DNA of 64,000 nt, taken from assembly GCA_030697175.1 (NCBI GenBank), contig JAUYQR010000011.1, positions 124,001-188,000 on the forward strand, written 5' to 3'. Made by a program: the position numbers and the translations under genes. The DNA is from Paracoccaceae bacterium. Its GTDB lineage: Bacteria > Pseudomonadota > Alphaproteobacteria > Rhodobacterales > Rhodobacteraceae. Below are positions 34,091 to 45,891 of the stretch, in pieces; position 1 is the first letter of the stretch, and the number at the start of each line of letters is the position of its first letter. Below the pieces are notes generated by a model. It made no database searches. It had not been told where the DNA came from and worked only from the letters and a program-made list of their open reading frames with translations.

Positions 34091-35035
34091 TCAATGCCAG
34101 GCGAAGAAGCCCCTTGGCGCACGCGACAGCAACTCGTCCGCCAAGGCGCGTCCAATCTCGGCCGCGTCCGTCACCGCACCGCGCCGCTCGCCCTCGATCG
34201 CTTCCGACCCGTCAGGCCGCAGAATCTCGCCCCTCAGCCACAACTGGTCGCCCTCGATCAGCGCCAGCCCCGCGATCGGCGTCTCGCAAGACCCGTCCAG
34301 CGTGGCCAGATACCCGCGCTCCGCCGCCAGCCGCACTCCCGTAGGCCCGTCATGGATCGCGGCCAGCAGCCCCGCCACCCGCGCGTCATCTGCCCGCCGT
34401 TCCACCCCGATCGCACCCTGCGCCACCGCCGGCAGCATCTCGGTCACCTCGACCGGCCCGCGCGCCATATGGGTCATGCCCAGCCGGTTCAGCCCCGCCA
34501 TCGCAAGGAACGTCGCCACCGCCACGCCATCTTCCAGCTTTTTCATCCGGGTCTGCACGTTGCCACGAAATTCCACCAGCTTCAGGTCCGGTCGCCGCAA
34601 TCCAAGCTGCGCCCGTCGCCTGAGGCTCGATGACCCGACCACCGCACCAAGCGGCAGATCGCCAAGCGTCGCCACCGTGGGCGACACGAACGCATCCCGC
34701 ACGTCTTCGCGCGCAAGGTAGCAGTCCAGCACCAGCCCCTCCGGCTGGATCGTCGGCATGTCCTTCATCGAATGCACCGCGATGTCGATGCCGCCGGCCA
34801 GCAGCGCCTCCTCGATCTCGCGCGTGAACAACCCCTTGCCACCGATATCCTTCAGCGCCTTGTCCAGGATCTGGTCACCAAGCACCTTGATCACGCAGAT
34901 CTCGAACGCATCTTCCGGCAGCGCGAACGCCGCCATCAGACAGCGCCTGACCTCGTGCGCCTGCCACAGCGCCAGCGGCGAGCCACGGGTTCCGATCTTC
35001 AGCGGGCGGGCGGGGTGGGGCAAATCATCGCTCAT
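34091..35035 (-). CDS. hemC: Porphobilinogen deaminase (hydroxymethylbilane synthase)
   Basis: Joins four porphobilinogens into hydroxymethylbilane, the third step of tetrapyrrole synthesis. From the ATG at 35035 the protein has 314 aa, the family norm. Seen motifs: IGTRGSPLALWQAHEVR, KDIGGKGLFTREIEEALL, AVHSMKDMPT, GSSSLRRRAQL and LDGSCETPIAG, whose Cys binds the dipyrromethane cofactor. It is divergent from hemE across 94 nt containing a PpsR-type box 18 nt upstream of this start. Confidence 0.96.
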   Translation of the reverse strand: MSDDLPHPARPLKIGTRGSPLALWQAHEVRRCLMAAFALPEDAFEICVIKVLGDQILDKALKDIGGKGLFTREIEEALLAGGIDIAVHSMKDMPTIQPEGLVLDCYLAREDVRDAFVSPTVATLGDLPLGAVVGSSSLRRRAQLGLRRPDLKLVEFRGNVQTRMKKLEDGVAVATFLAMAGLNRLGMTHMARGPVEVTEMLPAVAQGAIGVERRADDARVAGLLAAIHDGPTGVRLAAERGYLATLDGSCETPIAGLALIEGDQLWLRGEILRPDGSEAIEGERRGAVTDAAEIGRALADELLSRAPRGFFAWH

Positions 35036-35052
35036 GGCGACAGGCTTACAAC

Positions 35053-35070
35053 TGTCACCTTGGCCTGACA
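35053..35070. promoter_or_regulatory. PpsR/CrtJ-type palindrome between hemC and hemE
   Basis: TGTCA-N8-TGACA fits the PpsR/CrtJ consensus TGT-N12-ACA, including the inner C and G positions. It lies in the 94-nt hemC/hemE intergenic region, just upstream of a consensus TTGACA -35 hexamer (35075-35080) facing hemE. In Rhodobacter sphaeroides hemC and hemE belong to the PpsR regulon, which supports the call. Confidence 0.7.
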
Positions 35071-35129
35071 ACTCTTGACAAGCCCGCCCCGCCAGCCGAC
35101 CCATTGGCCAAACCGAAAAAAGGCCAACC

Positions 35130-36158
35130 ATGACCAAGACCATCCTGCGCGCCCTGAAGGGCGAGGTTCTGCCCACCCCGCCGATCTGGATGATGCGTCA
35201 GGCCGGCCGCTATCTGCCGGAATACCGCGCCACCCGCGCCAAGGCCGGCGACTTCCTGTCGCTGTGCTACAACCCCGAACTGGCCGCCGAGGTCACGCTG
35301 CAACCGATCCGCCGTTACGGGTTCGACGCGGCCATCCTTTTCGCCGATATTCTCCTGCTTCCCCAGGCGCTTGGCCCGAAGCTGTGGTTCGAAACCGGCG
35401 AAGGCCCGCGGATGGAAACCACCACCACGATGGGCCAGGTCGCCAATCTGAAACCGACCGAGGCGATCCACGACACCCTGTCGCCGATCTATGAAACCGT
35501 CCGCCTCCTCGCCGCCGAACTGCCGGCCGAGACCACGCTCATCGGTTTCGCCGGCGCGCCCTGGACCGTCGCCACCTACATGATCGCGGGCAAGGGATCG
35601 AAGGATCAGGCCGCCGCCCACGCGCTGAAAGACACCGATCGCCCCACCTTCGAGGCGCTGATCGACCGGATCACCGAAGCCACCATCGACTACCTCTCCG
35701 CCCAGATCGAGGCCGGGGCCGAGGTCGTCAAACTGTTTGACAGTTGGGCCGGCAGCCTGAAAGGCCAGGATTTCCGCGATTTCGCCACCGCCCCCACCGC
35801 CCGCATCATCAGCGCGCTGAAAGCCCGCCACCCCGACACGCCGATCATCGCCTTCCCGCGCGAGGCGGGGCAGGGCTACATCGGCTTTGGCCACCAGACC
35901 GGCGCCGATTGCGTGGCGGTCGACAACTCGGTCAGCCCGGAATGGGCCGCCGCCAACGTGCAGATCGACGGCTGCGTGCAGGGCAACCTTGCGCCCGAAC
36001 ACATGGTGACCGGCGGTCAGGCGCTGGTCGCCGCCACCCAGCACGTCGTCCGCGCCTTTGCCAGGGGCCCGCACATCTTCAACCTTGGTCACGGCATCAC
36101 GCCCGACGCCAACCCCGACAACGTGCAACTGATGATCGACACGGTGCGCGGGGTCTGA
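35130..36158 (+). CDS. hemE: Uroporphyrinogen decarboxylase
   Basis: Removes four acetate carboxyls from uroporphyrinogen III to give coproporphyrinogen III, the substrate of HemF and HemN, both encoded in this window. The 342-aa protein has the N-terminal signature [19 protein letters not shown] (active-site Arg cluster), ALLFADIL-like [16 protein letters not shown] with the catalytic Asp, [14 protein letters not shown], and a closing [16 protein letters not shown]. The start is preceded by an A-rich stretch (GAAAAAAGG). Confidence 0.97.
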
Positions 36159-38607: not shown

Positions 38608-39474
38608 TCAATACCACTTCGCGATGGGCGGCAGGCTCATCAGCACCGCATTGGCATCATGCCCCGTCTCCAGCCCGAACTTGGTGCCCCGGTCGTAGAC
38701 AAGGTTGTACTCGGCATAAAGCCCGCGGTGCCGCAACTGCTGCTCGCGGTCGTCCTCGGTCCATGCCGTGCCCTGCCGCCGCTCGGTCACCGGCACGAAG
38801 GCCGGCAGGAACGCAGCACCCACGGCTTGGGTAAAGGCGAAATCCGCCTCCCAGTCGCCGGTGTTCAGGTCATCATAGAAGATGCCGCCTACCCCCCGCG
38901 CCCGCCCCCGGTGCGGCACAAAGAAATACTCATCCGCCCAGGCCTTGAACCGGGTGTAATAGTCCGGCGAATGGGCATCACAGGCCGCCTGCATTGCCCC
39001 GTGAAAATGCGCCGTATCCTCGGCATACTCGATCGCCGGGTTCAGGTCCGCCCCGCCACCGAACCACGCGGCCCCCGGCGTCCAGAACATCCGCGTATTC
39101 ATATGGACCGCCGGGCTGTGCGGGTTGCCCATATGGGCGACAAGGGAAATGCCGCTGGCCCAAAACCGCGGATCTTCCGCCATTCCCGGCACCCCGCGCG
39201 CCGCCATCGCCTTTTGCGCCCGTTCGCCCAGGGTGCCATGCACCTCGGATACGTTGACGCCCACCTTCTCGAACACCCGGCCGCCGCGCATCACGCTCAT
39301 CAGCCCGCCGCCGCCATCGGCCCGCACTGTCGGCGTTACCTCGAACCGGCCCGGCGTGCCGGACCCGAACTCATCCTCCAGCCGTTCGAACTCGGCCACG
39401 ATCCGGTCGCGCAAAACCCGGAACCAAGCCGCGGCACGGGACTTGTGGCTGTCATACGGATCGGTCATCGTCAA
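38608..39474 (-). CDS. hemF: Oxygen-dependent coproporphyrinogen III oxidase
   Basis: Aerobic enzyme converting coproporphyrinogen III to protoporphyrinogen IX with O2. The 288-aa sequence carries the HemF blocks GGGGLMSVMRGGRVFEKVGV (as DGGGGLMSVMRG), HMNTRMFWTPGAAWFGGG, DLNPAIEYAEDTAHFH, GVGGIFYDDLNTGDW and the C-terminal YAEYNLVYDRGTKFGLETG. The start has two ATGs two codons apart (MTMT). The anaerobic counterpart hemN is 18 kb away next to fnrL. Confidence 0.96.
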   Translation of the reverse strand: MTMTDPYDSHKSRAAAWFRVLRDRIVAEFERLEDEFGSGTPGRFEVTPTVRADGGGGLMSVMRGGRVFEKVGVNVSEVHGTLGERAQKAMAARGVPGMAEDPRFWASGISLVAHMGNPHSPAVHMNTRMFWTPGAAWFGGGADLNPAIEYAEDTAHFHGAMQAACDAHSPDYYTRFKAWADEYFFVPHRGRARGVGGIFYDDLNTGDWEADFAFTQAVGAAFLPAFVPVTERRQGTAWTEDDREQQLRHRGLYAEYNLVYDRGTKFGLETGHDANAVLMSLPPIAKWY

Positions 39475-39572
39475 AGTCTCCCAAAGCTGACAGCGCCATG
39501 CCTAACACCGTGGCGCGACCGTTTCCAACAGGACATTTGGCCCGCCCAACCCTTCAGAAAGCGAGTTCACCG

Positions 39573-43028: not shown

Positions 43029-43234
43029 AGGTCTATACCTAGCCCATCAAGCGCAGAAATACCCTACATATGGCCCTCTCTTGCAGACTGCTGCATCCCT
43101 GCAACTGAATGAGCTACTCCGGCAAAGTCATTGTAAAATGTGGGTTTTCGGAACCGGGTGGCTGTGCTAGCCTCCACTCGAGGCAGAAAAATCGACACCG
43201 GAAATTCGGGTCGGACAGGCAAAGGGACAGCGAC
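43029..43234 (+). promoter_or_regulatory. 206-nt upstream region of the DD-carboxypeptidase gene
   Basis: Visibly richer in A and T than its neighbours, with short runs such as TCATTGTAAAATG and CAGAAAAATCG, and no plausible gene. A long leader or promoter for the downstream gene is likely. I see no firm operator, hairpin or riboswitch pattern. Confidence 0.4.
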
Positions 43235-45214
43235 GTGGCATCGCTATTCGGGCGGATCATCCGCATTTATCTCGTTGCATTCGCGGCTTTCGCCGTCGTT
43301 TTCACATCATCGGCTCAGGCGGCACCCTTCGCAGCCATCGTGATCGACGCCCGCTCCGGCGAGGTGCTTTATGAAAAGAACGCCGACGCGCGGCTGCACC
43401 CGGCCTCGCTGACCAAGATGATGACGCTTTACATCGCGTTTCAGGAAATCGAAGCGGGCCGCCTGTCACTGGATACCAGGGTGACCGTCACCAAATACGC
43501 CGCCTCGCAGCCGCCATCGCGGTTGGGCCTGAAGCCTGGCCAGAAGATCGCCCTGCGCTACCTGATCCGCGCCGCCGCCGTGAAATCGGCCAACGACGCC
43601 GCCTCGGCCATCGGCGACCACATCGGTGGCAATGCCGAAGCCTTCGCCAAACGGATGACCCGCACCGCCAAGCAGCTTGGCATGACGAACACCACCTTCA
43701 AGAACGCCAATGGTCTGACCGCCAAGGGCCACCTGTCGTCGGCGCGTGACATGAACACGCTGGGTCGGCATCTGTTTTACGACTTCCCGCAGTATTACAA
43801 CATCTTCTCGCGCCGCACCGCTGATGCCGGCGTCGCCACCGTGCGCAACACCAACTCTCGCTTTCTTGACGGCTACGAAGGCGCGGATGGCATCAAGACC
43901 GGCTACACCAACCCCGCCGGTTTCAATCTGACCGCCTCGGCGCAGCGCGGCGGCAAGCGCATCATCGCCACCGTGTTCGGCGGCACCTCGACCGCGCAGC
44001 GCAACGCCAAGATGGCCGAACTGATGGATCTCGGCTTCAAGTCCGCCAAGAACCGCGTCACCGAACAGCCGCCCGTCGCACCCGAAGCCCCCGCCGACCT
44101 GCTGCTCTCCAGCGCTGAACCGCAGATCGACGTGCCGGATGCCGAAGGCGGCGCCGCCAAGACCGTCCGCGTCTCGGGCGAGGTGCGCGTGTCGCCCCGG
44201 CCCAAGCCGCGTCCCGATGTGCCGGTCGTGCCGGACGCCGTCGCCATCGCACTGGCCGAAAGCATCGAAGGGGCGCTGGTCGAAGCCAATGCCGAACCCG
44301 CCCCGGAAGGCACGCTGGATTTCCAGGCCGAAGCCATTGCCTTGGCTCCCGAAGCTGTCGCAGAGGGTCCGGCCGACTCGGCGGTAGAAACCGCTGCCGT
44401 CTCTGACGAGGCGACAGAGGCGGCCGTGGCGCTTGCGCTTGCCGCCACCGCAGAACCCGGCACGCTTGATGCGCAGGCCGCCCAACTGGCCAATGCAGCC
44501 GATCCCGTCCTTCTCGCCGAGGCCACGACCCCCGAAACAGCGCCGGTCGATGACGCGCTTGCCGCCGTCAAGCCAAAGCCACGCCCCGACCGCCCCGCCG
44601 ACACCCTCGTTGCCGAGGCAGCCGAAGGTGTGGCCGAGGAAATCATTGTCGCCGAGGCCGAACCGGAACTCGTTGTAACCGACCCCGGCACCCTGCTGAC
44701 CGAAGAGGGCACCCTGCTGACCGAAGAGGGCATCATCGCCGCCGCAGACATGCAGCCCGAAATGCCGCAGCTCATCAAGGACGGCCTGCCCGAAGTCACC
44801 GACGTCGAAACCGTGGCCGCCGCCAACGCAGCCCCACTTGACGCGGCCCCCGTGGCCGCCCTTGCGGTCGCCACCATCACCACGCGCAAGGCCCCGATCT
44901 TCGACAGCGCCGAACCGGCCGAGGTCGAGGTCGCCGCTGCCGAACAGGAGGTCGTGGTCGTGAAATCCACCTCTGGCGGGCGTCACTTCGGCGTCAACGT
45001 GGGTGATTTCACCTCGCGCTATGAAGCTGAACGCGCGCTGCTGAAAACCGCGCTCGCCGAAAGTGCCACCCTGAACGAAGGGCTGCGCAAGATCAGCCAG
45101 AAAGACGGTGCCTGGCACGCCAACTTCATGGGCCTCACCGAAGAGCAGGCGAACCTTGCCTGCCGTCGCCTGAAAGCCCGCGCCATTCCATGCGAAACAT
45201 TGGGAGAAGGCTGA
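43235..45214 (+). CDS. D-alanyl-D-alanine carboxypeptidase (S11) with long linker and C-terminal SPOR domain
   Basis: Penicillin-binding DD-peptidase trimming pentapeptides in the periplasm. A GTG start at 43235, 7 nt after AGGGA, gives a signal peptide (FAAFAVVFTSSAQA). Catalytic motifs are Ser58-x-x-Lys61 (SLTK), Ser118-Ala-Asn120 and Lys221-Thr-Gly. After residue 300 comes an unusual Ala/Glu/Pro-rich linker of about 270 residues with two KPRPD-type motifs, repeated PGTLD/LxxEEG units and a perfect 21-bp duplication. The last 75 residues (FGVNVGDFTSRYEAERALLK to the end) are a SPOR domain, which binds denuded glycan at the septum. So the enzyme is probably recruited to division sites. Length 659 aa is well above the usual 390. 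Confidence 0.93.
   Translation: MASLFGRIIRIYLVAFAAFAVVFTSSAQAAPFAAIVIDARSGEVLYEKNADARLHPASLTKMMTLYIAFQEIEAGRLSLDTRVTVTKYAASQPPSRLGLKPGQKIALRYLIRAAAVKSANDAASAIGDHIGGNAEAFAKRMTRTAKQLGMTNTTFKNANGLTAKGHLSSARDMNTLGRHLFYDFPQYYNIFSRRTADAGVATVRNTNSRFLDGYEGADGIKTGYTNPAGFNLTASAQRGGKRIIATVFGGTSTAQRNAKMAELMDLGFKSAKNRVTEQPPVAPEAPADLLLSSAEPQIDVPDAEGGAAKTVRVSGEVRVSPRPKPRPDVPVVPDAVAIALAESIEGALVEANAEPAPEGTLDFQAEAIALAPEAVAEGPADSAVETAAVSDEATEAAVALALAATAEPGTLDAQAAQLANAADPVLLAEATTPETAPVDDALAAVKPKPRPDRPADTLVAEAAEGVAEEIIVAEAEPELVVTDPGTLLTEEGTLLTEEGIIAAADMQPEMPQLIKDGLPEVTDVETVAAANAAPLDAAPVAALAVATITTRKAPIFDSAEPAEVEVAAAEQEVVVVKSTSGGRHFGVNVGDFTSRYEAERALLKTALAESATLNEGLRKISQKDGAWHANFMGLTEEQANLACRRLKARAIPCETLGEG
44687..44728 (+). 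repeat. Perfect 21-bp tandem duplication in the carboxypeptidase linker
   Basis: Two exact head-to-tail copies, each encoding GTLLTEE. They lie in the low-complexity linker before the SPOR domain and keep the frame. Confidence 0.93.
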
Positions 45215-45891
45215 TGGTCGCGCTCGTCTTTCCGGCCCTGCCGACCGTCACCCTTCCCGTCACCGGGCGGGCTGAACGCTTTCCGATCCGCCGCGTGTTC
45301 TGCGTCGGGCGCAACTACGCCGAACACAGCCGCGAGATGGGTGGCGACCCCGAGGCTGAACCACCGTTCTTCTTCACCAAACCCGCTGACGCTGTGGTGG
45401 AATCGGGCAGCCGCATCCCGTATCCGCCCGCCACCGCCAACCTGCACCACGAGGCGGAACTGGTTGTCGCCATCGGCCGCAGCGGCGCGATGCTCACAGA
45501 ATCCGAGGCCGAGGCACTGGTCTGGGGCCACGCCTCCGGCAACGACCTCACCCGCCGCGACCTTCAGGCCCAGGCCAAGGCAACCCGCCGCCCGTGGGAC
45601 ATGTCAAAGGCGTTCGACAAATCCGCCATCGTCGGCAGCATCCGCCCCGGCCCGATCGGCGACGCCGCGATCCGCTGCATCGTCAACGGCACGCAGCGCC
45701 AATCGGCGCGCCTGTCGGATATGGTCTGGTCGGTTCCCGCGATCATCGCCGCCTTGTCAAAGCTGGTTTCGCTGGCCCCCGGCGACCTGATCTTCACCGG
45801 CACCCCGGCAGGCGTCGGCCCGCTGGTATCCGGTGACATCTGCACGGTCGAAGTCGAAGGCCTGCCCCACGCGACGGTCACCATCGCCTGA
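45214..45891 (+). CDS. Fumarylacetoacetate hydrolase (FAH) family protein
   Basis: A 225-aa metal-dependent FAH-fold protein, members of which hydrolyse or decarboxylate diketo acids (acylpyruvate, oxaloacetate). Family segments: FCVGRNYAEHSREMG, FFFTKPADAVV, metal-binding HHEAELVVAIG with Glu pair, GHASGNDLTRRDLQ, and FTGTPAGVGPLVSGD. The length fits the short YcgM-type subgroup. GAGAAGG precedes the ATG, which overlaps the carboxypeptidase stop (TGATG), so the genes are coupled although functionally unrelated by known roles. It ends 5 nt from convergent ccoS. Confidence 0.88.
   Translation: MVALVFPALPTVTLPVTGRAERFPIRRVFCVGRNYAEHSREMGGDPEAEPPFFFTKPADAVVESGSRIPYPPATANLHHEAELVVAIGRSGAMLTESEAEALVWGHASGNDLTRRDLQAQAKATRRPWDMSKAFDKSAIVGSIRPGPIGDAAIRCIVNGTQRQSARLSDMVWSVPAIIAALSKLVSLAPGDLIFTGTPAGVGPLVSGDICTVEVEGLPHATVTIA

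Follow-up and report, generated by a model that had tools for sequence, protein, structure and literature searches.

What is the role of the 18-nt palindrome which lies between two divergent tetrapyrrole genes, hemC and hemE, in this Paracoccaceae genome, and which regulator, if any, reads it? The palindrome is located in a stretch of 64,000 nt (hereafter the window) belonging to contig C20 of the 3.67 Mb genome (G000). A reading of the sequence alone (the sequence-only reading) had claimed an exact TGTCA-N8-TGACA motif at 35053-35070 between divergent hemC and hemE, and both letters and coordinates are correct: direct reading of the + strand gives TGTCACCTTGGCCTGACA, Pfam names both genes, and the start codons of hemC (ATG 35035-35033, - strand) and hemE (ATG 35130, + strand) are 94 nt apart. 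The palindrome is only 17 nt away from the hemC start codon. Our analysis of the sequence suggests that it is very probably an operator for PpsR (CrtJ), the redox- and light-responsive repressor which is encoded along with the photosynthesis genes of this genome. The elements of the locus are as follows.

35053..35070, no strand: predicted PpsR/CrtJ-type operator, TGTCA-CCTTGGCC-TGACA (exact motif, best matrix score in the window at 17.7, tracks ppsR in relatives)
34091..35035, - strand: hemC, porphobilinogen deaminase / hydroxymethylbilane synthase, 314 aa (PF01379 257 bits, PF03900 60 bits)
35130..36158, + strand: hemE, uroporphyrinogen decarboxylase, 342 aa (PF01208 389 bits)

From this site the sequence-only reading had predicted a ppsR gene and, as probable, a photosynthesis gene cluster elsewhere in the genome. 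Both are present on contig C16. A short operator read by eye was thus enough to foresee, correctly, a regulator and a set of photosynthesis genes on a contig other than the one which carries hemC-hemE. A profile search places ppsR at G000:C16:56790-58109 (TIGR02040, PpsR-CrtJ, 535 bits against a cut-off of 275). The encoded protein has PAS and Fis-type helix-turn-helix (HTH_8) domains, and it matches a PpsR chain of known structure, 4hh2, with 539 bits. The genome search also reveals the reaction-centre L and M genes (pufL and pufM; PF00124 twice at C16:30287-31949), and both ppsR and pufLM are free of internal stops. C16 further carries bchZ, bchC, a crtI-family gene, crtA, the gene of magnesium chelatase subunit D (bchD), idi, bchP, bchG, bchN, bchB, bchH, bchL and bchF, together with a gene for a radical SAM/B12-binding protein fitting bchE (bchE-like). 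As an alternative the same reading had offered that phototrophy was lost and the operator remained; this is at odds with a genome in which ppsR and the photosynthesis genes are present.

The loose consensus TGT-N12-ACA occurs 6 times in the window versus 4.83 (standard deviation 2.44) in shuffled sequences, which is the chance level, and was therefore not used as evidence. The stricter motif TGTCA-N8-TGACA with at most one mismatch is found at 3 places versus 0.80 (standard deviation 0.86), a count reached by 3 of 100 shuffles, and its one exact copy in the window is the hemC-hemE site. Near-matches at 43734 and 45602, located inside open reading frames (ORFs; 43109-45214 and 45190-45891), were set aside. 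Genome-wide, 50 places match with at most one mismatch, 8 of them exactly, versus 17 for a reversed-pattern control. Sites were also scored with a weight matrix built from 12 Rhodobacter sphaeroides chromatin immunoprecipitation sequencing (ChIP-seq) sites listed in Table 2 of PMC4344238 (photosynthesis targets and prrA), the hemE site being excluded. With a score of 17.7 the hemC-hemE site is the top + strand position in the window (the next ones score 15.0 and 11.1), close to the R. sphaeroides hemE site (18.3) and inside the range of the 12 training sites (13.5-25.7). A weak match at 39475-39492 (10.6, AGTCTCCCAAAGCTGACA), which could be due to chance, is located immediately upstream of a putative hemF, an ORF (38608-39474, - strand) with a hemF-like translation.

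Comparison across Rhodobacteraceae relatives reveals that the exact site is conserved in step with ppsR. The relatives are the best 80 of 594 HemE loci (given L numbers below), 77 of which include hemC upstream, and the searches for ppsR and the reaction centre covered 78 genomes, those of L065 and L075 being left out. ppsR is above cut-off in 33 of the 78 (20/40 plus 13/38) and the reaction centre is found in 31 (19/40 plus 12/38); in L019 (from a metagenome) and in L074, ppsR is present but the reaction centre gives no match. All 20 loci with the exact site, among the 80, come from genomes with ppsR (20/33 versus 0/45 of those without). hemC is inside the locus in 31/33 and 44/45 of these genomes, respectively, and for the remaining L016, L043 (with ppsR) and L078 (without) only up to 300 nt upstream of hemE was examined. 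The sequence-only reading had named the lack of a ppsR homologue and of motif conservation as what would count against it; the opposite was found on both points.

Median matrix scores of the hemC-hemE regions are 19.4 with ppsR (n=28) and 0.7 without (n=42; Mann-Whitney p 5.8e-11, uncorrected for kinship). Seven of the 77 regions were dropped from this comparison, namely L065, L075 and five that exceed 250 nt: L010, L011 and L012, which have ppsR and the site, and L018 and L020, which have neither. In four of these long regions (L010, L011, L012, L018) the hemC-hemE spacing is 328-458 nt versus the usual ~100, and the operator of L010-L012 stays near to hemC. Cut-offs between 8 and 12 let 25-26 of the 28 regions with ppsR pass, versus 4-9 of the 42 without. 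For the tree a cut-off of 10 was used, chosen after the scores had been seen; it is passed by 30/32 rows with ppsR (window included) and by 5/44 rows without.

This tree of HemC and HemE, made by a quick method, has 81 rows and 78 inner branches, of which 28 are starred. Both traits are available for 76 rows: 30 have ppsR and the site, 39 have neither, 5 have the site only and 2 have ppsR only. A minimum of 14 changes is required for ppsR and 13 for the site. Of 9 independent pairs on starred branches, an average of 6.3 have the site changing along with ppsR, 0.0 have it changing the opposite way and 2.7 show no difference in the site, which argues that the link between site and ppsR is not merely shared ancestry, though the test is small.

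Several results do not favour a PpsR operator. The exact site is missing in 13 of the 33 genomes with ppsR (2 of these with hemC outside the locus), the ppsR-bearing rows L022 and L074 have no site scoring 10, and the motif of L015 is poor, although its score of 10.4 is above the cut-off. Five of the 44 rows without ppsR (L034, L061, L067, L073 and L080) are above the threshold. The sign test on the pairs is modest (median p 0.031, range 0.016-0.125). Moreover, a consensus scan of the hemC-hemE region returned no sigma-70 promoter pair, and hence the overlap of operator and promoters described below is something we infer.

The closest rows in the tree are a Rhodobacteraceae (L005), Tabrizicola aquatica (L004) and a Tabrizicola sp. 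(L009); a literature search lacking most subscription journals found nothing on PpsR with Tabrizicola. In the clade of seven rows around the window, the five with ppsR (window, L004, L005, L008, L009) all show TGTCA-N8-TGACA followed by ACTCTTGACA. In L006 and L007, which have no ppsR or reaction-centre match, the site is eroded to CGCCGCGCGGCGCTGACA and CGCCGCCCGGCGCTTACA, with ACTCTTGACA intact and the flanking TTGACA kept. Both are metagenome assemblies, where a missing ppsR could be due to incompleteness; the erosion of the site is visible regardless. Three promoter elements can be proposed from the sequence and its conservation.

35066..35071, - strand: putative hemC -35, TTGTCA, holding the right half of the operator (same in 6/7 near rows; L007 one base off)
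35043..35048, - strand: putative hemC -10, TAAGCC, a weak consensus match, 17 nt from the -35
35075..35080, + strand: putative hemE -35, TTGACA, 4 nt downstream of the operator

GGCTTA or GGCATA (+ strand) is present at the place of the putative hemC -10 in 7/7 near rows, including the two without ppsR. TTGACA is near universal, being found in 68/76 intergenic regions (29/32 with ppsR, window included, and 39/44 without). It could therefore be argued that the palindrome is a by-product of back-to-back promoters, its half-sites coming from TTGTCA of the hemC -35 and the nearby TTGACA of the hemE -35, and that it is bound by no regulator. In line with this, the right half is found at the same place in 8/25 rows without ppsR whose hemC is aligned from residue 1, and in all 44 rows without ppsR the whole-site score is highest at the register 14-17 nt from hemC (mean -6.8 versus a median of -13.5). 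However, the left half has no promoter role in such a model, yet it is exactly TGTCA in 19/25 rows with ppsR that keep the right half at this register, versus 0/8 of those without ppsR. Taken alone at this register, the left half ranks 1/105 in rows with ppsR but 28/105 in rows without. A right half contained in the hemC -35 would explain why eight rows without ppsR keep it and none has the exact left half. We consider the by-product explanation unlikely.

The unremarkable rank of the left half also leaves a generally decayed site in the 44 rows without ppsR unsupported, despite their whole-site peak, and with it the idea that the site was generally present in the ancestors; a relic-like appearance is confined to single rows. 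Near-complete hemC-hemE sites without a ppsR or reaction-centre match are seen in L034, L073 and L080 (Ruegeria group; CGTCA-N8-TGACA) and in L067, Roseinatronobacter sp. HJB301 (TGTCCTGCGGGCTTGACA), whose tree neighbours L037 and L056 have both genes. Such relic-like sites would allow the window's site to be one as well, that is, to have formerly served PpsR and to be without importance in this lineage now. This is highly improbable for a genome which holds ppsR and pufLM free of internal stops, a bch/crt set and both half-sites intact.

If the palindrome is a PpsR operator, PpsR bound at 35053-35070 would cover the core promoter of hemC, with the right half on the -35 and the left half in the spacer between -35 and -10, and would abut the hemE -35. 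Two steps of the common tetrapyrrole trunk, those of hemC and hemE, would thereby be lowered when bacteriochlorophyll is unwanted (oxygen, light), and both genes would be released together with the bch, crt and puc genes. Repression at high oxygen or light is suggested here because it has been published for PpsR (PMC4344238, PMC10890935). The effect at hemC-hemE would probably be mild, as there is a single full palindrome; a mild effect is also to be expected since the R. sphaeroides hemE peak shows a 1.7-fold enrichment, the lowest in the published table, and a 2.2-fold expression change (PMC4344238).

The R. sphaeroides hemE site is a direct precedent, and this kind of site is thus already known. 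In strain 2.4.1 a PpsR ChIP-seq peak is listed at RSP_0680 hemE with TGTCCATTTGCCCTGACAAC (PMC4344238 Table 2), which bears out the parallel drawn in the sequence-only reading. Both sites lie in the hemC/hemE region, are palindromes with an 8-nt centre and have a right half followed by AC (TGTCCATTTGCCCTGACAAC there and TGTCACCTTGGCCTGACAAC here). They differ in the left half, which is TGTCA here and TGTCC there, and binding was measured there whereas it is predicted here. The TGT-N12-ACA consensus is shared with CrtJ/PpsR operators of R. capsulatus, R. sphaeroides and Dinoroseobacter shibae described in PMC10890935; unlike those operators, the present locus has one full palindrome and a lone TTGACA. 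Overlap with promoter elements was reported in the same source for D. shibae bchF and would apply here by the placement of the putative elements. A connection of PpsR with the trunk shared by heme and bacteriochlorophyll synthesis, established in R. sphaeroides, is hereby extended to further Rhodobacteraceae.

In R. sphaeroides the hemC-hemE region is bound by PrrA as well, with a ChIP-seq peak over RSP_0679 hemC / RSP_0680 hemE (PMC4263372), and the palindrome might accordingly be the site of another heme-gene regulator such as PrrA/RegA. There is very little probability of this, as the fit of the motif to the PpsR matrix equals that of the R. sphaeroides hemE site (17.7 versus 18.3) and its exact form is seen, among the genomes compared, only in those with ppsR.

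The other exact copies of the motif in the genome also point to PpsR. Five of the eight, including the hemC-hemE site, are beside known photosynthesis or heme genes, one is beside a candidate bciB and two are without an evident link. Apart from the hemC-hemE site they are located as follows.

C16:38207: 89 nt upstream of the bchC ORF
C16:56713: within the bchE-like ORF as mechanically called from TTG, 14 nt upstream of its first ATG
C16:59169: between candidate ppaA and bchF
C14:142288: upstream of pucBA-pucC, with a one-mismatch site at 142314
C24:75631: 19 nt upstream of an FrhB/FdhB-family gene, candidate bciB
C4:61776: between the glycyl-tRNA synthetase beta gene and a PEP-utilising-enzyme gene (no evident link)
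C23:71478: 5' end of a radical SAM/TRAM ORF (no evident link)

The copy at C16:59169 is identical letter for letter to the R. sphaeroides ppaA site in Table 2 of PMC4344238. Only its place, between ppsR and bchF, makes the 293-aa ORF a candidate ppaA/aerR; searches for a Pfam or NCBIfam family returned none for it. A different antirepressor, AppA, is not supported: a BLUF search of the genome gives one match (G000:C3:16302-16571, L108), which lies in an ORF of 129 aa, far shorter than AppA.

The candidate bciB, for an 8-vinyl reductase, is located at G000:C24:74388-75611 (L091:789-2012, - strand); BciB is a member of the FrhB/FdhB family. Relatives of this gene are found in 12 of the 34 genomes searched (12/24 with ppsR and 0/10 without), and for 7 of these 12 the 200 nt upstream contain a site with a score of at least 16. 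One paper mentions bciB together with PpsR. An AT-rich one-mismatch site, TGTCAAATTTATTTTACA, is present at G000:C20:296105-296122 (L092:2006-2023), next to a gene for an ECF sigma factor and a divergent ORF of the amine-oxidase family.

Ancestral loss and horizontal transfer of the photosynthesis cluster have both been argued for Rhodobacteraceae (cf. Brinkmann et al., PMC6052148). Because hemC-hemE is located off the photosynthesis contig here, its site must arise or persist separately from the cluster. In 23/31 loci with ppsR, the distance between the matched hemC end and the start of the best site is 15-18 nt. In L037, L056, L066 and L081 this distance is 44-101 nt and the right half of the site is part of a TTGACA, suggesting that the site originated separately at least once. 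It is conceivable, though we hold it only tentatively, that the hemC-hemE operator serves as a mark on the chromosome, located apart from the mobile photosynthesis cluster, which is written and erased with gain and loss of ppsR and was sited anew at least once. Since hemC and hemE persist after a loss of photosynthesis genes, their site may hold a record of PpsR control that does not depend on the mobile cluster; if so, it could be used to place gains and losses of phototrophy among the Rhodobacteraceae in order. The counts on the tree cannot separate gain from loss.

A remnant of a photosynthesis cluster is present at L122:5075-16691 in the genome of L074 (G070, Paracoccus sp. 2205BS29-5), a genome without a reaction-centre match. 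Its first part consists of idi, bchP, bchG, ppsR, a gene with a B12 domain, a stretch resembling bchF and the initial portion of bchN. The partial bchN is directly followed by the last part of crtA, and then by bchI, a bchD-like stretch and a further one like the cluster ORF after bchD. Such an arrangement suggests that a large internal segment was deleted, although it may instead stem from a join made in assembly.
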